Under the pieces are notes generated by a model that saw only the letters and a program-made list of their open reading frames with translations, ran no database searches and had not been told where the DNA came from. A DNA stretch of 64,000 bases from Natronobeatus ordinarius (GTDB lineage Archaea > Halobacteriota > Halobacteria > Halobacteriales > Natrialbaceae): contig NZ_CP101456.1 in NCBI RefSeq assembly GCF_024362485.1, forward strand, positions 1,984,001 through 2,048,000, written 5' to 3'. A program made the translations under genes and the position numbers. Each line of letters begins with the position of its first letter. Within the stretch, counting starts at the first letter, position 1. Below, piece after piece: positions 2,327-18,742 of the stretch.

Positions 2327-3244
2327 ATGGATCTCTCTAAAGCCATCGTCTCGATCTCAGAAGAGTTCAAAGCGAAGTCATACGAGGCGAGCAACCACCT
2401 CCCGAAGTCGGTCAGGAGCCCAGCGGGACGGCACGTGCGACCGGCTATTGCAACGGCTTATCGGTCCGTCGTCGACCGCCTAGTACCGTCGACGTGGGAG
2501 ATCACGACGAACGGGCTCACGATGCGGTTTCGGATTTCGAATATTGACGAATACCGACAGTTCAAACGGTTTCCCGAGAAGGACACGTCCTTTCCGTTAC
2601 CAGGAGACCTTCTCAATCAACTCCGATCCGACGACGTCTTCTGGGATATCGGAGCGAACGTCGGGGTCTACACCTGTTTCGCGGCCGCGGCGTTGCCACC
2701 TGGCCAGGTCGTTAGTATCGAACCGAACCCCAACAACGCCGCCCGGATCACCGAAAACCTGCGACTCAACGGATTGACGGCGGATGTCCACCAGCGTGCG
2801 CTAATGGAGGAACCCGGAGAGCTGACCCTCGAGATAACGGACCACGTGGACGCTGGTGCGTACGGACGAATCACCGAAGACCCGTCGTCGGGAATCACCG
2901 TGCAAGGAACGAGCGGTGATCGCCTCGTGGACGCTGGCGTCCCCGCCCCGACTGTCATCAAGATCGACGTCCAGGGAGCAGAATTCGAGGCCCTGCGCGG
3001 CATGGAAAACCTTCTCTCGAGTCCTGACTGTCGGCTCGTTTACGCGGATATCATCACAGCTGACTCGGGTGGCTACTACAAGGGCAAGTCGAACGGGGAT
3101 GCGGAACGGGAATGGCTTGAGGACAGAGGGTTCGAGGTCGAGCGACTGTACGAGTGGGAAGACGGCCATTTCATCCGTGCACAACGGCCCGAGGAAGGAT
3201 CGCGAGACGGTGAACGCGACGCGCTCGAACCCTCGGTCTCGTGA
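2327..3244 (+). CDS. FkbM-family SAM-dependent methyltransferase
   Basis: The 305-residue product contains the SAM-binding motif FWDIGANVGVYT near residue 104, an acidic residue after beta strand 2 (SIEPNPNNA) and the family signature VIKIDVQGAEFEALRGME near residue 210. FkbM proteins O-methylate sugars or related small molecules, and in haloarchaea they are frequent in surface-glycan clusters. The start is ATG at 2327. A TTTAAT box at 2287-2292 lies at a distance that would give a short leader, so the gene may have its own promoter. The sugar substrate cannot be read from the sequence. Confidence 0.87.
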   Translation: MDLSKAIVSISEEFKAKSYEASNHLPKSVRSPAGRHVRPAIATAYRSVVDRLVPSTWEITTNGLTMRFRISNIDEYRQFKRFPEKDTSFPLPGDLLNQLRSDDVFWDIGANVGVYTCFAAAALPPGQVVSIEPNPNNAARITENLRLNGLTADVHQRALMEEPGELTLEITDHVDAGAYGRITEDPSSGITVQGTSGDRLVDAGVPAPTVIKIDVQGAEFEALRGMENLLSSPDCRLVYADIITADSGGYYKGKSNGDAEREWLEDRGFEVERLYEWEDGHFIRAQRPEEGSRDGERDALEPSVS

Positions 3245-3298
3245 CGACCGGCAATACGAGTCGGTTAACTATGAGTAACTGAAGTGGTGGCCACTCCC

Positions 3299-4198
3299 AT
3301 GGTCGACGTCAGCGTCATTACGAACACCTACAATGACGGCCAATACCTCTCCAGGGCGATCCACAGCGTGGCGTGTCAAACGTACGGCAACCTCGAGCAC
3401 CTCATCGTGGACGACGGTTCGACCGACGACACACAGGCAATCCTCGGCCTGTACGACTACGATCACCTGCGTATTATCCGGAAGCCGGAGAACGAGGGAT
3501 TGGCCAGGGCACGGAACACTGGACTCGAGTACGCAGACGGGGCCTACGTCGTCTACCTGGACGCCGACGACGAACTTCTCCCGCAGGCAATCGAAACGCT
3601 CGTAACCCTAATTGAGGCTACCGAGGCGATTGCAGTGTGTCCATCGTACTTTCATATCTGGGACGACGGGACAACCGGCGTCCAGTCATCACCCAATAGA
3701 CAATTAACGGATGGCGATTTTGAAAACCATGGCATGTCCGCCATTGGTGGGTTTGGCGGGACGATGATAGAACAACGAGCGCTGGATGAGATTGGGGGGT
3801 TTGATACGCAATTCAACCACACTGTTGATTTTGATCTCTGTCTCCGACTCATTACCCACGGACCGATGTATGGGACGGACGAGATACTCTACACTTACTA
3901 CCGAGGACATGAGAGTCAGATGTCCTCACAAGATCATCTGGCAGACCGGAAGTTATTTTTGGACCGACATAACTCGAGAATGTCACGGTATTATCGTTCA
4001 AACTGTTACTATGGGCTGGCTTTGGACCATGGGGATAATGGAGACGTTCCCAGTGCAAAACAAAATCTCTTGAAGGCTATTGTTGCCTATCCAGCTAGGA
4101 TACAGTACTACTACTATTTGCTGGCGATATACTTGGGGGGATATGATGTGGCGCGACATCTCCACAATACGATCAGAGACAGAGTCGCTACCGGCTGA
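3299..4198 (+). CDS. glycosyltransferase family 2 (GT-A fold)
   Basis: The first 110 residues form a standard GT-A domain: DVSVITNTYNDG at the N terminus, VDDGSTDDT near residue 40, NEGLARARNTGLEYADG, and the nucleotide-sugar/metal DxD motif in VYLDADDEL near residue 88. It should transfer a sugar from a nucleotide or dolichol-phosphate donor to a growing glycan. ATG at 3299 is preferred because family members begin at this point; GTG at 3284 would add five residues. Base composition drops towards AT-rich after about 3650, within the gene, so its C-terminal half resembles the AT-rich block that follows rather than its upstream neighbours. Confidence 0.87.
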   Translation: MVDVSVITNTYNDGQYLSRAIHSVACQTYGNLEHLIVDDGSTDDTQAILGLYDYDHLRIIRKPENEGLARARNTGLEYADGAYVVYLDADDELLPQAIETLVTLIEATEAIAVCPSYFHIWDDGTTGVQSSPNRQLTDGDFENHGMSAIGGFGGTMIEQRALDEIGGFDTQFNHTVDFDLCLRLITHGPMYGTDEILYTYYRGHESQMSSQDHLADRKLFLDRHNSRMSRYYRSNCYYGLALDHGDNGDVPSAKQNLLKAIVAYPARIQYYYYLLAIYLGGYDVARHLHNTIRDRVATG

Positions 4199-4333
4199 GC
4201 CTGGTTACTGAGATGCTAGACGCCAACTAATTAACTTTCCGACAGTCGTCCATACGACGATGACTAATAATGTTTGACAATTTCAGAATTGAAAACGTTG
4301 TAGCCAAATTATGCCCCCAAGCAAATAGCTTTG

Positions 4334-5515
4334 ATGATTAGTGCTATGGAACGTGATTCTGTTGCTATCGGCCCACTCACAGTATCATTCTCTGACGACC
4401 CGTTCTGCCGTAATATACTGGATACAATGTACGGTGAACTACCGCGGTCGTCGTCTAAACCCGACATAAGAATCACGGGACATGATTGGCGGACAACCGA
4501 GTTACCCCAGAACGAGACGATACAGGCAAGCCAGAAAATTTCGGTTTGCGGTGACGTGCATTATGTCAATGAGGTCCGGTCGTATGGGCTGCCCAAGTCA
4601 CTCGTGGTCGATAGAATCGGCCAGCGTGGATACGCGTTTGAGATTGAAGGTTGGGAAACCGACAGCTTGAATATCGACGTATATTACGACGGTAAACTAT
4701 ATAATTCTGGACTGTATCCGCTTCGCTATCTTCTCAAACTCAAGAATCGATTCTTCGCCGAGTATCAAACCGGTCTCGCGAAGCATTTCGTTCGGTCCGT
4801 GTTCGAACCACTATGGCTAGCCTGGATGAGCAAGAAGGGGTTCGCGTTTTTGCATGCTGCGTCAGTTTCGGTGAACGGGCGTGGTGTGGCCCTCACGGGT
4901 TGGGGTGGAACTGGAAAGACATCGACGACAATCAGATGGATTCAGCAGTCTGACGACATTTCGTTTCTCAGTGACGATTTGGCGATAATCTCTGGCCAGG
5001 GAAAAATATACCCCTATTATCGATCAATCGTGATCTATTCATATAACACTGATAATAGTATATTGTCCAAATCGGTGTTTCTCGACGGGGTGGCTGATCA
5101 ATTGCAGTGGAACTGGCGAGAGAGGCGCTACGACGGAATGGGGGTGGGGCGCAGAGTCCCTCCGGAAGAACTATTCGATGATCAGCTAGGATTGGGAGGT
5201 CCACCGGAATTAGACGTGGCTGTGTATCTTAGCAGGGAAGAACGAGAGCGGTTTACTCATGAGTATTTATCAGCTGAAGAGTTGGCGCAACGGTCAACGG
5301 CAGTAATCCTATTCGAACTCGATTGGCTACTAGAATATAGCGCGACGGTCTGTTCGGCTGGTTCTATAGCGATCTGTCCGCAGGACATTGTCAACGATAT
5401 TGGAAATACATATCGGAAATGCTTTAGAGATGTGAAGACTATATTGTTGCGAACTCCGACAAGTGCTGGTCCAGAAGAGTTGACAGACTATCTCGAAGCG
5501 GAAATATTGGAGTGA
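4334..5515 (+). CDS. HprK-like P-loop kinase domain protein in glycan cluster
   Basis: The roughly 393-residue protein has a Walker A motif LTGWGGTGKTSTT near residue 188, preceded by FLHAASVSVNGRG and followed by FLSDDLAII. This arrangement (a 'stored at home' beta strand before the P-loop, then SDD) is that of HPr kinase/PEP carboxykinase-like proteins. The N-terminal 180 residues are family-specific. No HPr or PTS gene is near, so the substrate is probably not HPr; related proteins occur beside peptide- or sugar-modifying genes. ATG at 4334 is chosen; ATG at 4346 is equally possible. The gene is AT-rich compared with the window average, suggesting transfer. Function is unassigned. Confidence 0.65.
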   Translation: MISAMERDSVAIGPLTVSFSDDPFCRNILDTMYGELPRSSSKPDIRITGHDWRTTELPQNETIQASQKISVCGDVHYVNEVRSYGLPKSLVVDRIGQRGYAFEIEGWETDSLNIDVYYDGKLYNSGLYPLRYLLKLKNRFFAEYQTGLAKHFVRSVFEPLWLAWMSKKGFAFLHAASVSVNGRGVALTGWGGTGKTSTTIRWIQQSDDISFLSDDLAIISGQGKIYPYYRSIVIYSYNTDNSILSKSVFLDGVADQLQWNWRERRYDGMGVGRRVPPEELFDDQLGLGGPPELDVAVYLSREERERFTHEYLSAEELAQRSTAVILFELDWLLEYSATVCSAGSIAICPQDIVNDIGNTYRKCFRDVKTILLRTPTSAGPEELTDYLEAEILE

Positions 5516-5590
5516 TACCAAGTTGACGGCTGTATACCTGCGGCTTCCACTGGTCTCCCGTCACCCGAACCGATCCATCGGCTATTGAAT

Positions 5591-6454
5591 TCAGTCGATC
5601 ACGTCCTGTAGATCGGGATGGCAGGCGTACGATTGAAGCGAAGGGTTCAGTTCGCAGACATCGTCGACCGCGTCGAATTTATCACGGATTCGCTGCCACT
5701 CATGGTGTCTACACAATACATTGGCCGGGATTGAGTCAATACCGAGGATTCTTGCAATAGTAAACCGATGAGTGCCGTCGTTCAAGTAGATTTCACCGTC
5801 TCTCCCAATGACTACGAGGGGTTCGAGACGGGTCCAAAACCACCACGTTGTCTTTCTCTTGTCACACTTCGGAACATTGTGATATCCCTTGAAATTAGGA
5901 CGGTATCCTTCGTCTCGGATCGTGGTAAACAGATTATCCACGTAGTGACACCGAATCTCTCGATAGTCCTCTATATCGGTATATCCCGCTATTGACCCGT
6001 CTGTTTCGATTGTCTCTTTTGCTTGCTCGTAGTATATAGTATCCTCCCATTCACGCCCTTCTTCGAACCGTTGTCGCAACCCAGTATATATCCGTAAATC
6101 GTCCAGAGGTTTGCAGTTTTTTCGGCGATCCCAGGTGCCGCCCTTGATTCGTCCGAGACCCCACAACCACCCACTCCCACGGTTCCAGTGATCAATAGAT
6201 GATGGGTTAATCCAGATCGGCTTGTACGGTTGAGCGGGAGCATCGTACCGAATTCGTTGATATCGATACCGAATTTCTGTTATCAGTGAAAGCGACCTCG
6301 TTCCCTGAAACAGTCCCCGTTGCCGTATTTCTTCTCGAGTCCTATACATAAAATATGTCTTGACCGACCACAACAGCGACACGAGTCCATCGGATCGATA
6401 TCTTCTGAGGGCCTTATGAAAAAGGTGGAGAGCTGCACTCATAGTTCCCAACAT
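5591..6454 (-). CDS. unnamed G-x-H-R (ParB/sulfiredoxin-like) family protein, paralogue 1
   Basis: The 287-residue product shares an ordered motif set with two other genes at 7783-8598 and 8694-9536: a GG(T/D)WD box near residue 106, a DEGY box near residue 183, VVIGRDGEIYLNDGTHRF near residue 219, then IARILGIDSIP, RHHEWQRIRD and a terminal HPDL. The G-x-H-R core resembles the nucleotide-binding motif of the ParB/sulfiredoxin fold, which also includes an ADP-dependent serine kinase; that likeness is my inference. There is no membrane segment. The gene is AT-rich and convergent with the HprK-like kinase. ATG at 6442 is an alternative start. Confidence 0.65.
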   Translation of the reverse strand: MLGTMSAALHLFHKALRRYRSDGLVSLLWSVKTYFMYRTREEIRQRGLFQGTRSLSLITEIRYRYQRIRYDAPAQPYKPIWINPSSIDHWNRGSGWLWGLGRIKGGTWDRRKNCKPLDDLRIYTGLRQRFEEGREWEDTIYYEQAKETIETDGSIAGYTDIEDYREIRCHYVDNLFTTIRDEGYRPNFKGYHNVPKCDKRKTTWWFWTRLEPLVVIGRDGEIYLNDGTHRFTIARILGIDSIPANVLCRHHEWQRIRDKFDAVDDVCELNPSLQSYACHPDLQDVID

Positions 6455-6790
6455 GAGTATGAGTCCAGTACCCGTAAAACACTCTAAACTATATTGATAT
6501 ATTTTCTATCTAATCTAAAATTTAAGATTTGTCTTGGAAAGACCGTCTGTATCTGGTTCGGACCCGTGGCTAAATTGCTTCGCCTATCTATATTCATCTA
6601 GAAACGCCATCTACCAATATATCAGTATAACTTATAAGTGAGAAAAATGGTATCGATGAAGGGAATATATGCCTGTCCGACTAATACAATCAACTACTAT
6701 ATATTTTCTCCAACAGACAGAACACAGTATAATTCGTATTATTTGACTAACTGCATTACAGCTATAGTCCGGGTTGTGGATGCGGAGGTC
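6455..6790 (+). other. AT-rich intergenic region between divergent genes
   Basis: This 336-bp stretch separates paralogue 1 (leftward) from the epimerase (rightward). It is among the most AT-rich sequence in the window, with many TATA-like words such as those near 6490-6510 and 6615-6630, so divergent promoters are likely here, but I cannot single one out. An upstream extension of the epimerase frame runs through it from 6638, but its composition and content are not protein-like. Confidence 0.5.
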
Positions 6791-7714
6791 ATGAGGGCGG
6801 CTGTCACAGGTGGGGCCGGCTTTATCGGCTCACACCTCGCCGAACGGCTGGTCGAACGAGGTGACTCTGTCACGGTCGTCGACGACCTCTCGAGCGGCAA
6901 GCGCGAGTGGGTACCATCGGAAGCTACGTTCGTCGAAGGCGACCTGCTCGAGCGAGAACTCCTCGAGTCGGCCATCCACCCGGAGCTGGACGTCGTGTTC
7001 CACCTCGCCTCTCGGAAAGCCGTGAACGACGACCAACCGCACAGCCAGTTTCGTGAGAATACTCTCATGACGTCGTCGCTCCTGCAGGCGATGCGATCCC
7101 ACGGCGTCGACACCCTCGTGTTCACCTCGTCGTCGACTGTCTACGGCGAGGCGCCGCGGCCGACGCCGGAGGATTACGCGCCGCTCGAGCCGATCAGCGC
7201 CTACGGGGCGAGCAAGCTCGCCTGCGAAGGGTTGCTGGCGACCGCAGCCCACTCACACGGAATGACGGTCCGGAACGTTCGCTTCGCAAACATCGTTGGT
7301 CCGCGACTTCGCGGTGCAGTCGTCCCCGATTTCATCGAGAAGCTCCAGGCAGATCCGGAGACGCTGACGATTCTCGGAAACGGCCGCCAGGAGAAGTCCT
7401 ACATGCACGTCGACGACTGCATCGACGCGATGCTCCACGTTCTCGAGGAGACCACCGGTCCGATGACGTCTGTTAACCTCGGCACGCGAACGACGACGTC
7501 CGTGAATCGGATTGCAGACATCGTCGCCGACGAGATAGGTGTCGATCCGGCATACGAGTATACCGGCGGCGAACGCGGCTGGACGGGCGACATCCCGAAG
7601 ATGCGACTCTCGATCGAGAAACTGGCCGCGCTTGGATGGGAGCCATCGACCGAGAGCGACGCGGCCGTTCGCCAGGCTACTCGAGAGTTGCTGTCGGAAC
7701 CCAGCATCGGCTGA
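6791..7714 (+). CDS. NAD-dependent epimerase/dehydratase (UDP-glucose 4-epimerase type)
   Basis: Starting at ATG 6791, the 307-residue product begins with the Rossmann motif AVTGGAGFIGSH. It continues with VFHLASRKAV, the catalytic serine region TSSSTVYGE and the YxxxK pair in SAYGASKLACEG. This is the extended short-chain dehydrogenase fold that makes nucleotide sugars such as UDP-galactose or UDP-galacturonate. The frame is open to 6638, but the extra 51 codons are AT-rich and unlike the family. A decayed, internally deleted copy of residues about 65-140 lies at 11896-12090. Return to high G+C here marks the end of the AT-rich block. Confidence 0.87.
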   Translation: MRAAVTGGAGFIGSHLAERLVERGDSVTVVDDLSSGKREWVPSEATFVEGDLLERELLESAIHPELDVVFHLASRKAVNDDQPHSQFRENTLMTSSLLQAMRSHGVDTLVFTSSSTVYGEAPRPTPEDYAPLEPISAYGASKLACEGLLATAAHSHGMTVRNVRFANIVGPRLRGAVVPDFIEKLQADPETLTILGNGRQEKSYMHVDDCIDAMLHVLEETTGPMTSVNLGTRTTTSVNRIADIVADEIGVDPAYEYTGGERGWTGDIPKMRLSIEKLAALGWEPSTESDAAVRQATRELLSEPSIG

Positions 7715-7752
7715 CGAAGGCGGTAGCCGTCTGCGGTGTAGCCGCCGCGAAC

Positions 7753-7760
7753 TTTTATAT
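7753..7760 (+). promoter_or_regulatory. TATA box for the gene starting near 7783
   Basis: TTTTATAT stands out in GC-rich flanks, and its centre is about 27 bp before the GTG at 7783. That spacing fits a leaderless haloarchaeal transcript and is the reason for choosing this start over the upstream GTG at 7762. Confidence 0.5.
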
Positions 7761-7782
7761 CGTGAAGCGAAACCGGTCACTC

Positions 7783-8598
7783 GTGGGAGCGCTCTACGGA
7801 GAACGGTATCGACGGCTCGATCCGATATCCGCGACATTCAAACTGTCCAGACGCGTCGCTCTGGATCGATCCGGCTGTGGTGGCGCCACGTACAGACTCT
7901 CTTCGAGGTCAGCAGACTGTCTCTTCAAGACCGTAACCACAGCTACCAGAGCGTACCACCAACTCGTCTCCTCACGAAACTGTGCGGGATACTCCGATGA
8001 GAATCCTTTCAAGCTCATCCCCGTCGATCCGTCGGAGATTACCCATGCATCGCCAGGGACAGACCGCGAGTTCGGCTCTGTCGTCGGCGGTGACTGGGAT
8101 CGATCCACGACCCCGCTGAGCGACAGGCCGCAGTACGTGTTGCTGGAAATGCGGTACGTCGATGGGCTGGCGTGGAGATCCAACGGGATCCAGCGGGTGA
8201 TCGACCAACAGTTCGAGGACGGACACTACTCGGGATGGGAGCGAGACGAGTTCGTCAGTTCTCTCGAGGAAGTCGACGAGTTGTACGCGAACCTCAGGCG
8301 AAACGGCTACCTCACTCAGTACGAACTGCTCGAACGAGGGTACGACGTCTTCGGCGAGAACAACGATGCCGTCCACCCGTATTTCAACGAGGTGGTCGTC
8401 GACATTGGCCGTGACGGACAACTGCTCTGGCGAACCAGAGGACAACATCGATTGTTTCTGGCGAGAGCCCTGGAGATCGATACGATCCCGGCACTGGTCT
8501 GGACGAGACACAATGAGTGGGAACGGACTCGCGAGCAGCGTGTCGATTCCCTTGACCATCCCGACCTGGTCGAACCGTACGGGAATATAACTGGCTGA
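7783..8598 (+). CDS. unnamed G-x-H-R (ParB/sulfiredoxin-like) family protein, paralogue 2
   Basis: The roughly 271-residue product carries the same ordered boxes as its paralogues: VVGGDWD, RRNGYLTQYEL, VVDIGRDGQLLW followed by RGQHRLFLARALEIDTIP, TRHNEWERTREQ and HPDL. The invariant His and Arg of G-x-H-R are present. It has high G+C, unlike the other two copies, so the three genes did not arrive together by one recent event. GTG at 7783 is chosen from the TATA spacing; GTG at 7762, or read-through from the epimerase 69 bp upstream, would add residues. No membrane segment is seen and no function is known to me. Confidence 0.65.
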   Translation: MGALYGERYRRLDPISATFKLSRRVALDRSGCGGATYRLSSRSADCLFKTVTTATRAYHQLVSSRNCAGYSDENPFKLIPVDPSEITHASPGTDREFGSVVGGDWDRSTTPLSDRPQYVLLEMRYVDGLAWRSNGIQRVIDQQFEDGHYSGWERDEFVSSLEEVDELYANLRRNGYLTQYELLERGYDVFGENNDAVHPYFNEVVVDIGRDGQLLWRTRGQHRLFLARALEIDTIPALVWTRHNEWERTREQRVDSLDHPDLVEPYGNITG

Positions 8599-8693
8599 CG
8601 TGAATCTTGCTCCCTCTAGTGATGGGAGTGAGCCGAAAGTTTTAGTTCGACTAACTAGTAAAAGGTGGTGACTTTATTCATCTCCCGTCTCCA

Positions 8694-9536
8694 TTACGTA
8701 TCCAGTCCTATGTCTAGAAGATCTGGATGGTTCGCGTACGAGGTATTGTGAGGTGAAGTAGATCTCACACTATCCTCTCGGTGTTGCATCCACTTCCTGT
8801 GCCGAACGTATACGCCAACGGGAAGCGTATCGATACCCAATATTTTAGCGATTGCGAGCCTGTTTCTACCGTTAACAAAGAGAAGCGTTCCATCACGACC
8901 GACATCTACATTTATTTCCTTCGCAGCGACAGGGTAATTTCCTAATTCAGCTTGAGTTCTGTAGCCTTCTTCTGTTATTTTATCGAATAATAGGTCGATT
9001 TCTTTACATCGTAGTTTGAGACCTGACCGCGTAGAAACTCCTTTCGTCACTAACTGTTCTGCATTGATGAAATCAACACAATGTTGAAACCACTCTGTCT
9101 CTTCCCACGGAGTGTTATTCTGGAAATGATCTTTAAGTGAATTGTAAAAGATACTTTCGGTAAAACGCTCCGCACCACTACGATAGAGTTTGTATCGTGA
9201 CTCGTATACTGGGTCGATATCTTCAGGACCACTTTTATCCCAGTCTCCCCCCATAACTGTCCCTAGCCTGGCATCATTTCCGTAATATGGTGGGAAATTT
9301 CGGCCGGAAAAGTGCTGGATATCCTCTGTTTTCACCAGAAGTGTCTCAAATGGATCCGGTGGGTTGCTGTAATTTTCGAGATCAGTTGGAAGTGGATATT
9401 TTCTTCGGGCATACCACCTCCGATAACTATTCGGCACTATCTGCTTCATCGAAAATCGAAAAACCCCTTTGATAAAGTCAGATACACCCTCTCGTTTTAG
9501 GGTGTACACTCCTTTCGAAATGATTCGGTAAGTCAT
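8694..9536 (-). CDS. unnamed G-x-H-R family protein, paralogue 3, with altered core motif
   Basis: The 280-residue product matches the family boxes: TVMGGDWDKSG near residue 97, EEGYRTQAEL, INVDVGRDGTLLFVNGRNRL, IAKILGIDTLP, VRHRKWMQHRED and NHPDLLDI at the end. The core position that is His in the other two copies is Asn here (GRNR instead of GTHR or GQHR), which may mean loss of catalysis. The gene is AT-rich and convergent with paralogue 2. It lies 70 bp downstream of the start of the ABC exporter gene's 3' side, both pointing left, but the order does not prove an operon. Confidence 0.62.
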   Translation of the reverse strand: MTYRIISKGVYTLKREGVSDFIKGVFRFSMKQIVPNSYRRWYARRKYPLPTDLENYSNPPDPFETLLVKTEDIQHFSGRNFPPYYGNDARLGTVMGGDWDKSGPEDIDPVYESRYKLYRSGAERFTESIFYNSLKDHFQNNTPWEETEWFQHCVDFINAEQLVTKGVSTRSGLKLRCKEIDLLFDKITEEGYRTQAELGNYPVAAKEINVDVGRDGTLLFVNGRNRLAIAKILGIDTLPVGVYVRHRKWMQHREDSVRSTSPHNTSYANHPDLLDIGLDT

Positions 9537-9609: not shown

Positions 9610-11418
9610 TTATCCTGACTGTAACGAATACAGCGAGGAGTACGTATCGGCGTTCGATAACAACTCCTCGTGAGGACCGGCTTCGACGATTCGGCCATCT
9701 TCCATCGTGTAGATTCGATCTGCGTTCGTCACCGTCGAGAGCCGGTGTGCGATCACCAACATCGCGTAGTCCCGTTCCATCGACTCGATTCCACTGTGTA
9801 CCTGCTGCTCGAGCGCGGTATCCAGATCGCTCGTCGCTTCGTCCAGAATCAGCAGGTCTGCGTCTTTCAGTAACGCTCGAGCGATCGCGACCCGCTGGCG
9901 TTGGCCACCGGACAGCTTCACGCCTTGATCGCCGAGGACGGTATCGTACCCGTCCGGCAGGTCCTCGAGGAACTCGGTCACCTGTGCGATCTCACAGGCC
10001 GCTTCGATCTCCGCCTGGGTCGCACCCCGGTTCCCGGCCGTGACGTTTCGCCGAAGCGTTTCGTTGAATACGTGTGGGTCTTGCCTGACGACTGCCACTC
10101 GAGAGCGCCACTCCTGTATGTCAGTGTCGTCGATCGGGACGCCGTCGGCACGAATCTCACCGCGATCGGGTTCGTACAGCCTCGCGAGCAGCGAGGCGAT
10201 CGTCGACTTCCCTGCGCCCGAAGGGCCGACGAACGCGACGAACTCCTCGCGGGTGAACTCGAACGAGACGTCACGCAGCACCGACTCGTCGCTCGAGTCG
10301 TAGCTGAATCGAACGTCGTCGAACTCAATCCGGTCGACCGGCTTCGGAACCGGCCTCGATCCGTCCGTTGGCTCGCGGTTCTGTTCGAGTTCCTCGAGGA
10401 ACTCCTGGGTTCGAACGAGATGTGGGAGTTGACTTTCGAATCGATAAACGTACTTATTCAAGCTACTGACCTTCGGTCCGAGCTGGTACATCGCGAACAG
10501 GAAGACTCCCAGTTCGGCGAGCGTCATCGAGGACAACGTCAATCCGGCGTAGATCAACCCGAAGACGGCTACTGCCGTCATGAGTTGGTAGAAGTTCGTG
10601 ATGGCTGCGTCGTTCCGTTCGATCCTGATCGAGTTTCGTTCGAACTGCTCGATCGATTTCGAGAACCCCGACCGGAGTTCGTCGATCATCCCGAATATTT
10701 TGACTTCTCTGACGCCCTGGGTTCCCGCCTGGGCCTGGCTCTGGATTCCCTCTTTTGCATTCGCAACCTTATCGCCGAGCGAATAGCCGGTGTCGAGGAC
10801 GTGCCTGAACAGCACGGTTATCCCGCCGAGAAAGACCGCCGTGAGAACCGTCAATAGTGGCGAAATGAGCAACGCAATAGTGAGATACATCGCGGCGAGC
10901 AATCCCTGTTCGACACAGCGCAATGCGTACTTGATGACGCTTCCTGCGTACTCTGCTTGCGTGACGATCGCGTTGAGGATATCGTCTGACCCCTCCCGAT
11001 CGTAGTACGAGACATCTGCCTCGATCGCGTGATTGAACGCTTCTTCCTGTAGATAGCGGACGTATTTCGTGACGATCGCTGCACTGAGCCAGTTGACCAG
11101 AAACGAGGTCGTAAATCGGACGGTCATCACGGCCGTGACGCCAGCGATCAGGTAGCCGAGCGTGAACGGGATTCCTACCGTCTCGTACAGCATGAGGAAG
11201 ACCTCGAGGAAGGCGTCGCCGTTCTCGGCCGACTGTTCGCCCTGGGCGACCTCGAGAATCGGCATGATGAACCCGAGGCCGATCCCCTCGAGAAATGCCG
11301 CAACGACGCTCAGCACGACGATTGCGACGGCTAACGGAGGGTGGAATTTCGCAACCCGGTATAACGCCTGTCCTTTCTTGCGCCAGGCGATATCGTCCGT
11401 CGTATCAGTGGGAGACAT
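9610..11418 (-). CDS. ABC exporter, fused permease and ATPase (MsbA/PglK-type)
   Basis: The 602-residue protein has an N-terminal six-helix membrane domain (about residues 25-320) and a C-terminal ATPase. The ATPase has Walker A VGPSGAGKST near residue 396, signature LSGGQRQRVAIARALL near 500, Walker B LLILDEATSDLD and the switch His in IAHRLS near 553. Half-transporters of this layout dimerise and flip lipids or lipid-linked oligosaccharides. Its place between the epimerase and AglB suggests flipping of dolichol-linked glycan (inference). ATG at 11418 gives the usual length; the frame is open to 11472. A second, decayed copy of its ATPase half lies at 17830-18742. Confidence 0.87.
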   Translation of the reverse strand: MSPTDTTDDIAWRKKGQALYRVAKFHPPLAVAIVVLSVVAAFLEGIGLGFIMPILEVAQGEQSAENGDAFLEVFLMLYETVGIPFTLGYLIAGVTAVMTVRFTTSFLVNWLSAAIVTKYVRYLQEEAFNHAIEADVSYYDREGSDDILNAIVTQAEYAGSVIKYALRCVEQGLLAAMYLTIALLISPLLTVLTAVFLGGITVLFRHVLDTGYSLGDKVANAKEGIQSQAQAGTQGVREVKIFGMIDELRSGFSKSIEQFERNSIRIERNDAAITNFYQLMTAVAVFGLIYAGLTLSSMTLAELGVFLFAMYQLGPKVSSLNKYVYRFESQLPHLVRTQEFLEELEQNREPTDGSRPVPKPVDRIEFDDVRFSYDSSDESVLRDVSFEFTREEFVAFVGPSGAGKSTIASLLARLYEPDRGEIRADGVPIDDTDIQEWRSRVAVVRQDPHVFNETLRRNVTAGNRGATQAEIEAACEIAQVTEFLEDLPDGYDTVLGDQGVKLSGGQRQRVAIARALLKDADLLILDEATSDLDTALEQQVHSGIESMERDYAMLVIAHRLSTVTNADRIYTMEDGRIVEAGPHEELLSNADTYSSLYSLQSG

Positions 11419-11615
11419 TGTAGCACAGCAGTGTCGAAGAGTGGTTCTCCCGTCTGTATCAGCAGTCTCCATAAAATCTCGTCGGTCGTTTTAGCGGAGA
11501 AACCAACAGCTAACCCTCGTTTCGACATCGCCCGCGTGTGTACGCAAGTCGCCTCAGTTCAGCGCTCCAAACCGGTTTCGACAGTGATATTGCCACTTGA
11601 GGAACCCTCCGCCGC

Positions 11616-11894
11616 TTACAAGCGACAATTTCCACGACACCTGTTGGTACGAACGATATTCGGCTGGCGAACGACTTCTGGAGGCGGTTCAGTTACGCGC
11701 CAGCCCAGACTTCGTCGCGGAGCCGGAGCCGAGCCGGAGCCGTTCGCGTTCTCGGCGATAGCGGCTTGCTGCTCGTTGACGTTCTCCTGGGAGATGAACT
11801 GGACCTGCTCGAGTTGCGCACCCGCGTGCTGCTCGAGGTCGTTCGCCTGCTGAGCGTCGCAGTCGTAGGAGATCCTCTCGAGTCGGCCGGTCAC
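11616..11894 (-). pseudogene. remnant of a Gln/Asn-rich protein
   Basis: A 92-residue minus-strand frame contains a Gln/Asn/Ala-rich stretch (QFISQENVNEQQAAIAENA) resembling the repeats of secreted Gln/Asn-rich haloarchaeal proteins such as the one encoded at 19191-19565. It has no signal peptide and ends in unrelated low-complexity sequence. It abuts the epimerase fragment, so this 480-bp stretch between the ABC exporter and AglB appears to be gene debris. Homology to the 19191 gene is weak and needs alignment. Confidence 0.35.
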
Positions 11895-11895
11895 C

Positions 11896-12090
11896 TGAGG
11901 TGGACGTCGTCTTTCACCTCGCCTCTCGAACAGCCGTCAACGACGACCGCCCGCACAGCCAGTTTCGTGAGAACGCGCTCATGACGTCGTCGGCCGTCTA
12001 CGGCGAGGCGCCGCGACCGACGCCAGGAGACGACGCGCTGCTCGAGGCGGTCTGCGCGTATAGGACGGGTAAACTCGCGTCCCTCACGAA
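11896..12090 (+). pseudogene. fragment of the nucleotide-sugar epimerase gene
   Basis: About 195 bp match the functional epimerase at 6985-7220 closely, starting at DVVFHLASR and the segment around NDDRPHSQFREN, then jumping to VYGEAPRPTP. About 60 bp are missing at a TCGTCG direct repeat, so slippage or recombination between repeats explains the gap. The match ends soon after the region equivalent to the active-site Tyr, where a TAG-containing stretch follows. No start or NAD-binding motif is present. This is a dead partial second copy. Confidence 0.8.
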
Positions 12091-12339: not shown

Positions 12340-14793
12340 ATGGTCGAGGAACAGGATCCCACAACAGTCGCTGATGCGACAACAGCATTCCACGAGGAGT
12401 ACGACGACGGAGTGCATATACTCGAGACACTCCTCACGATCGACTCCGAACACGACACGTGGACCTTCGACGAGCTACCGCTCGGTTCGGGAACGTTCGG
12501 CGAACTCGTCTCACGCGGAATCGTCACGAAGGTCGACGGCGAGTACCGCGTCTCGAGCCGAGAAGGCGTTCGAGCCGGGATCGAAGGTAGGCCAGTTTCA
12601 GTCGAAAACGATCGGAACACCGGACTCGATTTCGCGGTCCCGACCGACCTCGATCGACGCGCCGCTGCTGCGCTAGCCGCCGCGCTCGGCGTGCTGTTTG
12701 CGACGCGAACGCTAATTTATTCGTCAGTGATTCGCGGCGAGCATGTCGTCTCACCGTCGAACGATCCGTACCACTACCGGTACTGGCTGGAGGAACTCCT
12801 CGCAGAGAGCGACGGGATCGTGATAACCGATATGCCGGAGAGGGCGGCCGAGACGAGGCCGCTGACTCACGCCGCGAACTGGCTGTTCGCCACGTTGCTC
12901 GGCGGGGATCAGTGGGCAGCGGACATGGTCGCCGCGTGGTTCCCCGTCGTCGCGACGCTCGCGCTCGGCGTCGTCGTCTACTGGCTCGCCGTGATCGTCA
13001 GCGACGACGCTCGTGTCGGGGTCGTGGCGGTCGTCCTACTAGCGATCACTCCACTGCACGCCGTGTACTCGACTATTGGCTTTCTCGAGCACCGGCCGCA
13101 CCAGTACTTCTGGATCGGCGTGACGATGCTGACGCTCGCGTGGCTGGCCGTCGACCTCGATCAGCGACGGGCCGGAGCACCGACGACGCAAGCGGCGATT
13201 CGCGAGCACCTCCAGCAATCGTGGACGTGGGTGGCCGCCGTCGCGCTGGGTCTCGCCATCGCGTTCTCGGTCCACGCCTGGGGTGGAGGTGTCCTGTTGC
13301 TCGTTCCCGCTGCGGCGTACGTCGCGCTGAAAGTCGCGGTCGACGTCCGGGCCGGCATTCCGCCAGCGTTGGCGAACTTGCCAGTTCTCGTCGGATTGGG
13401 GCTGGGGGCGGTTCTCGCCGCGTTCTTGCACTTCGGCTGGGGGTGGCACGAGGTGTTCACCGCGGCGATCCCGGTGCTTGTGGTCATCGGTGCCGTTGCC
13501 GTCGTCGGACTCGGAGAGTTGTGGCGTCGTCTCGAGTGGCCTGCGTGGGGACTCGTCGGCGTCGAGATTGGTTTCGCTGGTTTCGGCCTCCTCACGTTCC
13601 GATACCTGCGGCCGGGCGACTGGACCAGGCTCGTCGAACGGGCCAGTGACCTGTTTTTCAGAGGAGGAGCAAGGGAGACGACGTCGTTGTTCTCGGTAGA
13701 CCAGGCGATCGTCATCGGACCCCTATCGCAGTTCGGAGTCTGGTTCTACATTGCGCTCTTAGTTCTGGGATGGGCCTGCTGGACCTCTGTTCGGCGCTAT
13801 GCGCCCGGGTGGACGTTACTCTCCGTCTACGGCAGCTTCTGGCTCGTGCTGGCGGCGATCCAGGCTCGCTTCGCCGGGCAGTTGACGATCCCGTTCGCGG
13901 TACTCGGTGGGCTAGGCTTCGTCCACCTGCTCGCGTGGGCGAACGTCGCCCGCGTTCCGGCCCCGCTCCGCGGGTCCGACGAGAATGAATCCGGCGATCG
14001 GAACACACAGACCGCCGCGGCAGACGGTGGGGGCGCCACGGAAGACGAGCAAGCACGCGAACCGAGTTTCGTCGTCCCGGGAGATACCGTGACGCTCGTC
14101 TCGCTCGTCTGGATTTGCTTGCTGATCTTCGGAATGAGCTTGCTGTTTCTCCCGTCGATCGTCGGACAGACGGCGTACAGCGATGGGGAGTTCGAAGCGG
14201 CGATGGCTATCGACGACCACGCCGCGGATGTCGATCGGGAGTACCCGGAGAACTTCGTGCTGAGCAACTGGGGCGATAACCGGATGTACAACTACTTCGT
14301 CAACGAGGAGGCCGATCGGTACGCATACGCCCTCGACAATTTCGAAGCGTTCCAGACCGATGACGATCCGGACGGCTGGTACGAGGAGTTCGAGGAGAGT
14401 CAGGTCGGTTACGTCGTGATGAACGACGAAGACGGAACGTACCCGGAGGAGATTTCGCAGGCGCGGCTCCACGATAACCTCGGAACGGGTGGCGAGGACA
14501 CCGTACCGCTCGAGCACTACCAGGCGATCTACGTCGGCGACGAAGAGACCGCGTTTGCCGTCGTCCCTGGAGCGACGATCACTGCAACCGTCGAACCGGA
14601 AGAGATGGTGTCGATCGAAACCAAGGTGACGGTCTCGGGCGAAACGCTCACGTACGAGCGGGAGGTGACCGCACAACAGGACGGGACGCTGGAAGTGACG
14701 GTTCCCTATCCCGGTGATTACACGGTCGGTGATCGCGACGTTACCGTGTCCGCAGCGGATGTCGAGAACGGTTCGACGATCTCTCTCGAGTGA
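12340..14793 (+). CDS. aglB: AglB/STT3-family oligosaccharyltransferase with N-terminal winged-helix-like domain
   Basis: The 817-residue protein has three parts. Residues 1-90 are soluble and resemble a winged helix (LGSGTFGELVSRGIVTK then GEYRVSSREGVRAGI). Residues about 105-610 hold a dozen or so membrane helices with the luminal acidic motif SNDPYHYRYW near 139. The rest is an extracellular domain. STT3/AglB moves a lipid-linked glycan onto Asn of N-glycosylated proteins such as the S-layer protein. The classical WWDYG motif is not present; the equivalent site appears to be SNWGDNRMYNYF near 644, a form I recall from other haloarchaeal STT3 proteins. The gene sits centrally among glycan genes, flanked by the decayed epimerase and ABC copies. 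Confidence 0.85.
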   Translation: MVEEQDPTTVADATTAFHEEYDDGVHILETLLTIDSEHDTWTFDELPLGSGTFGELVSRGIVTKVDGEYRVSSREGVRAGIEGRPVSVENDRNTGLDFAVPTDLDRRAAAALAAALGVLFATRTLIYSSVIRGEHVVSPSNDPYHYRYWLEELLAESDGIVITDMPERAAETRPLTHAANWLFATLLGGDQWAADMVAAWFPVVATLALGVVVYWLAVIVSDDARVGVVAVVLLAITPLHAVYSTIGFLEHRPHQYFWIGVTMLTLAWLAVDLDQRRAGAPTTQAAIREHLQQSWTWVAAVALGLAIAFSVHAWGGGVLLLVPAAAYVALKVAVDVRAGIPPALANLPVLVGLGLGAVLAAFLHFGWGWHEVFTAAIPVLVVIGAVAVVGLGELWRRLEWPAWGLVGVEIGFAGFGLLTFRYLRPGDWTRLVERASDLFFRGGARETTSLFSVDQAIVIGPLSQFGVWFYIALLVLGWACWTSVRRYAPGWTLLSVYGSFWLVLAAIQARFAGQLTIPFAVLGGLGFVHLLAWANVARVPAPLRGSDENESGDRNTQTAAADGGGATEDEQAREPSFVVPGDTVTLVSLVWICLLIFGMSLLFLPSIVGQTAYSDGEFEAAMAIDDHAADVDREYPENFVLSNWGDNRMYNYFVNEEADRYAYALDNFEAFQTDDDPDGWYEEFEESQVGYVVMNDEDGTYPEEISQARLHDNLGTGGEDTVPLEHYQAIYVGDEETAFAVVPGATITATVEPEEMVSIETKVTVSGETLTYEREVTAQQDGTLEVTVPYPGDYTVGDRDVTVSAADVENGSTISLE

Positions 14794-17829: not shown

Positions 17830-18742
17830 CTACTGCGACTGCAACGCGTACAGCGACGAGTACGCACTCGGGTTCGACAGCAACTCCTCGTGGGGTCCGG
17901 ACTCCACGATCTCTCCGTCTTCCATCGTGTAGATTCGATCGGCGTTGGTTACCGTCGAGAGCCTGTGAGCAATCACCAGCATCGCGTCGTCTCGGGTCAT
18001 CGATTTGATCTCCTCGTGAGCTCGCTGTTCGAGGGCCGTCTCTATAGTAGCCACTGAACGTCAGTGCACACCTGCTCGCGATCAAGCGGCCAAACTGGCT
18101 TGCGCTGCCAGTTTTGGCCGCTCCACTACAAGCAGTGTGTAACCCGTTTCAGTTGGTACTATAGGCCGCTCGTCGCTTCGTCCAGTATCAGCAAGTCTGC
18201 CTCTTTCAACACACGAGCGATCGCGACCCACCGTCGTTGTCGCCTCCGTGATCATCGAGGACGGGATTTCCCTCGCCTGGTTTCTCGGGAAAAACTCGAT
18301 CACCTGTGGAATTTCACAACCTCCATTGATTTCGGCTTGCATCGCGTCTCGGTTCCTGATGGTCACGTTCCGTCAAAGCGTATCGTTGAAGACGTGCGAG
18401 CCCTGTCTGATGGCGCTCACTCGAGAGCGCTACTCCTGAACGTCGAGATCGGTTCTTGGAATACCGTTGGCTCGAACGTTGCCACGATCGGGTGCGTACA
18501 TTCTGGCGAGCAACGACGCGACCGTCGACGTCCCGGCATTGGGTGGGCCGGCGAACGCGATAACCTCGCGCCGATCGAACCAAAAGGAGACGTCGCGGAG
18601 AACCGTTTCATCGCTCCAAACGTAGCTGAATCAGACGGTGTCGAACTCGATTCGATTGATCGATGTCGGTATTGGCCAGAGCCCCTTAGTCGGTTCGCAG
18701 TTTTACACCGATCGCACAGCCGCCGTGTGATCAGGTTGTATT
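17830..18742 (-). pseudogene. decayed ABC exporter ATPase domain, interrupted by a MITE
   Basis: The minus strand matches the ATPase half of the exporter at 9610-11418 from its stop codon back to the start of that domain. The last 70 codons remain open (H-loop [22 protein letters not shown]). After the 117-bp MITE at 18045-18161 the match continues with frameshifts and stops; the segment equivalent to NRGATQAEIEAACEIAQVTEF is recognisable near 18310-18360. The membrane domain is missing. Similarity fades near 18742. This is a dead partial second copy. Confidence 0.82.
18045..18161. mobile_element. 117-bp IS630-type MITE with internal hairpin
   Basis: The ends read TATAGTAGCCACTGAACG and, inward from the right, TATAGTACCAACTGAAAC (the leading TA is the target site). 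TA flanks both sides (18043-18044 and 18162-18163). Removing the element and one TA gives GTCTCTAGGCCGCTCG, which aligns without a gap to the intact exporter at about 9800-9830, so insertion into this pseudogene is directly visible. Inside, 18085-18098 and 18108-18122 are inverted repeats of 14-15 bp differing by one A, forming a strong hairpin. There is no coding capacity. Confidence 0.82.

Follow-up and report, generated by a model that had tools for sequence, protein, structure and literature searches.

A widespread unnamed protein family with a predicted ParB/sulfiredoxin fold in a haloarchaeal glycan island: candidate kinases of surface glycans

Results

Organization of the glycan island

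Three full-length members of one unnamed protein family, designated P0001, P0002 and P0003, are encoded within a glycan island of the haloarchaeon Natronobeatus ordinarius. The stretch of DNA analyzed (64,000 nucleotides of contig NZ_CP101456.1, referred to as the window) starts at position 1,984,001 of this 4.2 Mb genome, and the island occupies window positions 1409 to about 16,600. The family is predicted to have the ParB/sulfiredoxin (Srx) fold, recurs beside genes for glycan assembly, and may phosphorylate surface glycans.

The three genes are P0002 (5591-6454, minus strand; 287 residues), P0001 (7783-8598, plus; 271 residues, GTG start) and P0003 (8694-9536, minus; 280 residues), each identified as an open reading frame and supported by the alignment and tree for P0002 and P0001, and by an AlphaFold2 model and a Foldseek search of the PDB for P0003. 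Between P0002 and P0001 lies a gene for an NAD-dependent sugar epimerase/dehydratase (6638-7714, plus; PF01370, E = 4.5e-54). The gene directly upstream of P0003, on the same strand, encodes an MsbA/PglK-type ABC exporter (9610-11472, minus; MsbA_lipidA, E = 3.5e-113; PglK, E = 7e-58). To the left of P0002 are a polysaccharide deacetylase (1409-2185, plus; Pfam PF01522, E = 9.9e-23), an FkbM-family methyltransferase (2327-3244, plus; TIGR01444, E = 1.9e-29), a family 2 glycosyltransferase (GT2; 3284-4198, plus; PF00535, E = 4e-37) and an HprK-related P-loop protein of 393 residues (4334-5515, plus, with an in-frame TTG at 4331; HprK_rel_B, E = 4.6e-6). The large membrane protein encoded at 12340-14793 (plus) was recognized by eye as a putative AglB-type oligosaccharyltransferase and is read as setting an N-glycosylation context; its full-length homologue shares a locus (L047) with another family member. 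A likely sugar transferase is also part of the island.

Several further features were noted in and around the island. The epimerase gene has a decayed copy at 11869-12078, consisting of two stretches that match 6954-7221 at 85% and 80% identity; P0001, P0003 and the ABC exporter gene are thus bracketed by one intact and one broken epimerase gene. At 17837-18662, partial stretches that match the ABC exporter gene (9617-10340) at 79% and 71% identity are probably a remnant of it. The G+C content of the HprK-like, P0002 and P0003 genes (4331-6454 and 8694-9536) is 0.44-0.49 as against 0.633 for the window, which suggests that they came from a foreign source. Two overlapping open reading frames on the minus strand (239-1239), at the island's left edge, appear by eye to be IS630-type transposase-like.

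Conserved boxes and phylogeny

The original prediction, made from the letters alone, had recognized the three paralogues at these coordinates, which the open frames confirm, and had proposed that they keep one order of boxes. The alignment bears this out for GG(T/D)WD, (E/N)GY, GRDG, L-x-ID-x-(I/L)-P, RHxxW and HPDL in all three proteins, with GGTWD, RHHEW and HPDL in P0002 and GGDWD in P0001 and P0003. The G-x-H-R core, also claimed for all three, holds for P0002 (GTHR) and P0001 (GQHR) but not for P0003, which reads GRNR. When conservation was counted over 68 family members (P0003 numbering), G216, G223, R226 and H246 were invariant (68/68), W99, D100 and W144 were present in 66/68, and P70 and G97 were also nearly invariant; position 225 is His in 51/68 members and Asn in 17/68.

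In the tree, the three window copies fall into three separate, supported clades, indicating that they are not recent duplicates; a recent local triplication was thus ruled out. Together they seem to be a collection of divergent variants, and the earlier suggestion of distinct variants as opposed to redundant copies is supported by these separate clades. P0002 belongs to its own supported clade together with one Halovenus and one Verrucomicrobiota member. P0001 lacks the near-invariant T147 and sits on a very long branch, and may be either fast-evolving or decaying.

Distribution of the family

The family profile gave matches with E = 1e-40 to 1e-63, far beyond chance, in many other haloarchaeal genomes, and a class-wide profile search detected the family in 116 of 292 haloarchaeal genomes, often in multiple copies. 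Clustered copies were found in 16 haloarchaeal genomes among the matches listed, and in about 22 of 79 loci a further family gene is found no more than 6 kb away. When named genomes were scanned with a narrower alignment, by which distant bacterial members are under-sampled, 78 loci with family members were obtained from haloarchaea, Nanohaloarchaea, Lokiarchaeota, Planctomycetes, Verrucomicrobia, Nealsonbacteria, WOR-3, Desulfobacterales, several Proteobacteria and Halanaerobiales.

None of the Pfam or NCBIfam models reaches its cut-off with the family, and the annotated family matches on plasmids are all named 'hypothetical protein'. No description of the family was found in the literature searched on ParB/sulfiredoxin proteins with glycans or methyltransferases, or on ParB with haloarchaeal glycosylation. 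Pfam hits to FTP, DUF3845, Mus7 and others, and PDB hits to UDP-diacylglucosamine hydrolase and a designed-type binding protein, were single-member or outside the core and were judged spurious. A role in defence was rejected, since PADLOC returned no match except a chance-level hit to a type II methyltransferase.

Viral contigs of IMG/VR carry short, divergent members (L038:4992-6353, L040, L041 and L043); a fused form (described below), used as query, gave no match in phage genomes. The same short match (query 108-276, 34.5% identity) was detected in three halophilic archaea, on a Halorubrum lacusprofundi plasmid and in Halobacterium sp. DL1 and archaeon DL31 (NZ_KX906370, CP007061 and CP002989), suggesting a shared mobile segment.

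Association with glycan genes

A gene for GT2, family 4 glycosyltransferase (GT4), flippase or AglB homologue was located within 6.5 kb of the family gene in 28 of 56 loci, as compared with 1 of 20 control stretches whose positions in haloarchaeal genomes were chosen arbitrarily (p = 3e-4). The comparison is somewhat biased, because the family loci were the source of some of the query proteins and include bacterial ones. In a Pfam census of the directly flanking genes, flippases and the GT1 and GT2 families were on top, and none of these was within the top 25 of the control census. The link to glycan genes, part of the original prediction, is supported by both results. Orthologues of the ABC exporter adjoin relatives of P0003 in six other haloarchaeal loci (L049, L050, L053, L055, L064 and L096), in varying orientation.

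Some bacterial copies have cell-wall neighbours. In Marivita and an alphaproteobacterial metagenome-assembled genome, two overlapping tandem family genes (L116:9881-11196, L117:9791-11202 and L118:9881-11196) are included in a cell-wall/division cluster next to putative murC, murG, ftsW and murD as read by eye, and in Roseivivax (L110) a single copy adjoins murD.

The HprK-like neighbour

According to the original prediction, the HprK-like protein (4334-5515) and the three paralogues are a candidate for a single dedicated modification system. The HprK-like features themselves are real, including the P-loop GWGGTGKT and a DD, but weak, all library matches being below cut-off: the best, to NCBIfam HprK_rel_B, reaches 26 bits against a cut-off of 200, and that to Pfam Hpr_kinase_C gives E = 0.0046. 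In favor of a single system, this genome has two glycan loci containing a family gene, and in each of them an HprK-like gene and a related epimerase are present too. At the second locus (L007) the HprK-like protein is a paralogue (27% identical), and a GT4 is encoded next to the family member and the related epimerase, so that the pairing looks meaningful within this genome. Beyond it the association disappears. Relatives of the HprK-like protein were found in 28 of the 292 haloarchaeal genomes, of which 8 are shared with the 116 family carriers where 11 are expected by chance (Fisher p = 0.23), and the repeated pairing looked for near family genes was absent from all 78 named loci, the only pairings being the two of this genome. 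A single system of this kind is therefore hardly tenable, and the HprK-related protein was judged to be a neighbour, not a conserved partner.

Two further features of the second locus were noted. A truncated second family copy (L007:11072-11209; an 81-residue open frame) lies on the opposite strand beside the intact copy, with an IS66 transposase nearby, and a 575-residue protein encoded beside the family member (L007:8404-10128) has no Pfam or NCBIfam hit and an N-terminus that by eye is nucleotidyltransferase-like.

Predicted ParB/Srx fold

The AlphaFold2 model of P0003, built from 68 sequences, has a mean predicted local distance difference test score (pLDDT) of 84.6 and a predicted template modelling score (pTM) of 0.83. 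Its PDB matches listed by Foldseek are sulfiredoxins (the best), ParB, Noc, KorB, PadC, Spo0J, SerK and SbnI, together with the uncharacterized 2hwj. The local root-mean-square deviation from SerK and SbnI is in the range of 2.4-2.6 (2.5 for SerK and 2.4 for SbnI). A helical insertion of about 100 residues interrupts the core between Box I and Box II: it follows the first strands (66-95) and precedes the GxxR box (223-226). The chain ends about 35 residues past the core, with no helix-turn-helix (HTH) or dimerization domain following it in the model.

Sequence comparison points in the same direction. NCBIfam SbnI was matched by 6 of 68 members (best E = 3.6e-4) and SerK by one (E = 0.0086), these matches being partial and far below cut-off; P0002 gave a sub-threshold E of 0.13 with SbnI, and a phage ParB-like nuclease family was matched by 11 of 68 members (best E = 1.3e-5). 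In an hhalign comparison with SerK, the DGHHR box was the only part to align (P = 0.0024). The ParB/Srx fold had been guessed from the G-x-H-R core, with structure prediction as the proposed check; carried out on P0003, that check gave essentially only ParB/Srx proteins in the PDB, and with this weak sequence similarity the guess is upheld. On the strength of the model, the family is assigned the ParB/Srx fold with the G-x-x-R nucleotide box present.

PF02195 was matched by none of the 68 members at E = 0.05. A 2025 survey of the ParB-CTPase fold used PF02195 for its search (PMC12704722) and is therefore not expected to have found this family. With neither an HTH nor a PF02195 match, a role in partition or DNA binding was rejected.

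Fusion to a WbdD-type methyltransferase

At least a dozen bacterial and Asgard family members, including all the Lokiarchaeal ones and most of the bacterial ones in the branch outside the haloarchaeal clade, carry a class I methyltransferase at the C terminus. These fused forms are 420-450 residues long and combine both predicted activities in one protein. The analogy with WbdD, which caps the E. coli O9a O-antigen with methyl-phosphate (PMC3482155), was written down before the Foldseek and profile tests. In the model of one fused form, L070 (pLDDT 92.4, pTM 0.88), a ParB/Srx-like N-terminal part is followed by the methyltransferase at the end, with no eukaryotic-type kinase and no coiled coil, and its five best PDB matches are all WbdD (Foldseek, E = 3e-9 to 3e-8). 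The methyltransferase domain alone (hmmsearch, PDB) also ranked WbdD first (E = 2.4e-6). The family FHH aligns with WbdD H132/H133, which are needed for methylating the sugar phosphate (PMC3482155); H95 is present in 13/14 and H96 in 11/14. Judging from the model, the ParB/Srx domain of the fused forms stands where WbdD has its kinase. A second, independent fusion, to a methyltransferase of different type (Methyltransf_24), was found on viral contig L038. The WbdD-type methyltransferase is thus a better-supported recurrent partner of the family than the HprK-like protein.

Alternative activities of the ParB/Srx domain

Srx has no DNA-binding domain and uses the fold for ATP/ADP binding in phosphoryl chemistry. 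SerK and SbnI are likewise enzymes without a DNA-binding domain in which the fold is an ATP/ADP-binding module for such chemistry (PMC12704722, PMC5120207). The SerK sequence used for comparison was confirmed against PDB entries, including E30 mutants; when 148 genomes within the phylum were searched with the SerK family, no sequence to align was obtained. SbnI and SerK being the nearest named families by sequence, the present family could be a free amino-acid kinase close to them, providing O-phosphoserine or some comparable small phosphate ester from which glycans are built. We regard this as improbable, because the similarity is restricted to the DGxHR region, the clustering with glycosyltransferases and flippases is strong, and the fused WbdD-like methyltransferase points to a phosphorylated sugar.

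Alternatively, the domain might bind nucleotide as a switch or scaffold and in this way regulate the glycan machinery with no phosphate transfer, like CTP-gated ParB without DNA. Among divergent ParB-fold proteins there are many for which binding of CTP, ATP or GTP is a switch (PMC12704722), and the Asn at position 225 in a quarter of members would also fit this role. The absence of an HTH or dimerization domain after the core in the model, however, speaks against it, and both the fusion to two different methyltransferase types and the near-invariant D100, W144, T147 and H246 outside the nucleotide box look like an active site. A switch is therefore unlikely, although it retains some weight.

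In Srx, ATP serves to activate a sulfinate, and haloarchaeal glycans commonly contain uronic acids, so that the domain might in a Srx-like manner activate a sugar carboxylate or similar group for further modification, leaving no stable phosphate. The chance of this is slim, since the neighbourhood of the family shows no recurring ligase or acceptor domain and the substrate of the WbdD methyltransferase is a sugar phosphate (PMC3482155).

Discussion

The family is real, widespread and unnamed, with a firm predicted fold and a plausible activity. The activity proposed here is that of a ParB/Srx-fold kinase which phosphorylates surface glycans, with methyl-capping in the fused forms, and we give this proposal an even chance of being correct. 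Each paralogue would bind nucleotide at the G-x-[HN]-R box and phosphorylate a lipid-linked glycan on one of its sugars, or else a small acceptor closely tied to it. The glycan would then be exported by the adjacent ABC exporter or flippase and transferred by the oligosaccharyltransferase. The helical insertion splitting the ParB/Srx core may hold the acceptor, and the divergent copies may serve different acceptors. In the fused bacterial and Asgard forms, the WbdD-like methyltransferase would methylate the new phosphate to give a methyl-phosphate cap or decoration. The computations show the fold, the boundaries of the family, its invariant nucleotide box, the glycan context, the fusion and the WbdD type of the methyltransferase, whereas we infer nucleotide binding, kinase activity, the glycan acceptor, the methyl-phosphate product and the same chemistry in the stand-alone archaeal forms.

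Several observations weigh against glycan phosphorylation or its methyl step. Asn replaces His in the GxHR box of a quarter of members, P0003 included. P0003 gives weak Foldseek E-values (0.02-1), a consequence of the short shared core (65-100 of 280 residues). The catalytic E30 of SerK lies outside the region aligned by hhalign, and GDWD is a putative counterpart of E30 by box order. The lead of WbdD over other class I methyltransferases is about one order of magnitude in sequence E-value, the next match being at 1.6e-5. The His pair is also found in methyltransferases not acting on phosphate (PMC3482155), and the more telling WbdD residue, R203, falls outside the alignment; an Arg near the C terminus of the fused methyltransferase (R166 of A10), invariant in 14/14, could correspond to it. 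Among the loci fetched, L047 is the only one at which a stand-alone haloarchaeal copy has a WbdD-like methyltransferase encoded separately nearby, so that methylation is not general among these copies. The window members (271-287 residues) are stand-alone proteins without the domain, and the methyl step is not to be assumed for the window. The fusion loci contain flippases and many GT4 genes, but ABC-2/Wzt families are not among the 25 commonest; with no coiled-coil ruler evident either, chain-length control of the WbdD kind is not implied, and decoration or capping is the safer word for the fused forms.

If the proposal is true, a 'hypothetical protein' family that is present in about 40% of the haloarchaea sampled, in Asgard archaea and across many bacterial phyla becomes a testable glycan-modifying enzyme, with a new activity for the ParB/sulfiredoxin fold, and phosphate or methyl-phosphate is predicted on surface glycans where perhaps it has not been sought. 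As both predicted activities reside in one fused bacterial protein, the idea is directly testable in a single assay.

Among known systems, SbnI and SerK, both free serine kinases, share with the family the fold core, the DG-x-H-R box and the lack of an HTH, the likeness being confined to the GxHR region. Unlike these enzymes, the family has the helical insertion between Box I and Box II, the GDWD, WxxT and RHxxW signatures, and a glycan gene context. ParB-CTPase fold proteins of the PF02195 type (PMC12704722) are alike in fold and nucleotide box, and the family differs from them in giving no PF02195 match. Sulfiredoxins are the best PDB matches of P0003, but the window copies have no cysteine in the GxxR box, carry the extra insertion and are found in a different context.

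Other comparable systems are enzymes of methyl-phosphate capping. The fused forms resemble WbdD, the kinase-methyltransferase of E. coli O9a (PMC3482155), in joining a putative kinase to a WbdD-like methyltransferase with the aligned FHH and in their location within glycan clusters; unlike WbdD, they have the reversed domain order and no coiled-coil ruler was seen, and the WbdD kinase is of an unrelated, eukaryotic-type fold. The Klebsiella O7 ORF6 methyltransferase-kinase (PMC11231755) is likewise a case in which a formerly unannotated kinase domain beside a methyltransferase gives methyl-phosphate, its kinase resembling the aminoglycoside-type kinase AmiN, not ParB/Srx. Methylphosphate terminators thus use two unrelated kinase folds (WbdD, PMC3482155; Klebsiella O7 ORF6, PMC11231755), and the replacement of one kinase by another beside a methyltransferase has a precedent. 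That ParB/Srx represents a third kinase fold in methyl-phosphate capping across archaea and bacteria, with the haloarchaeal forms as stand-alone, acceptor-specific glycan phosphorylators, is a possibility that we consider to fall a little short of an even chance.

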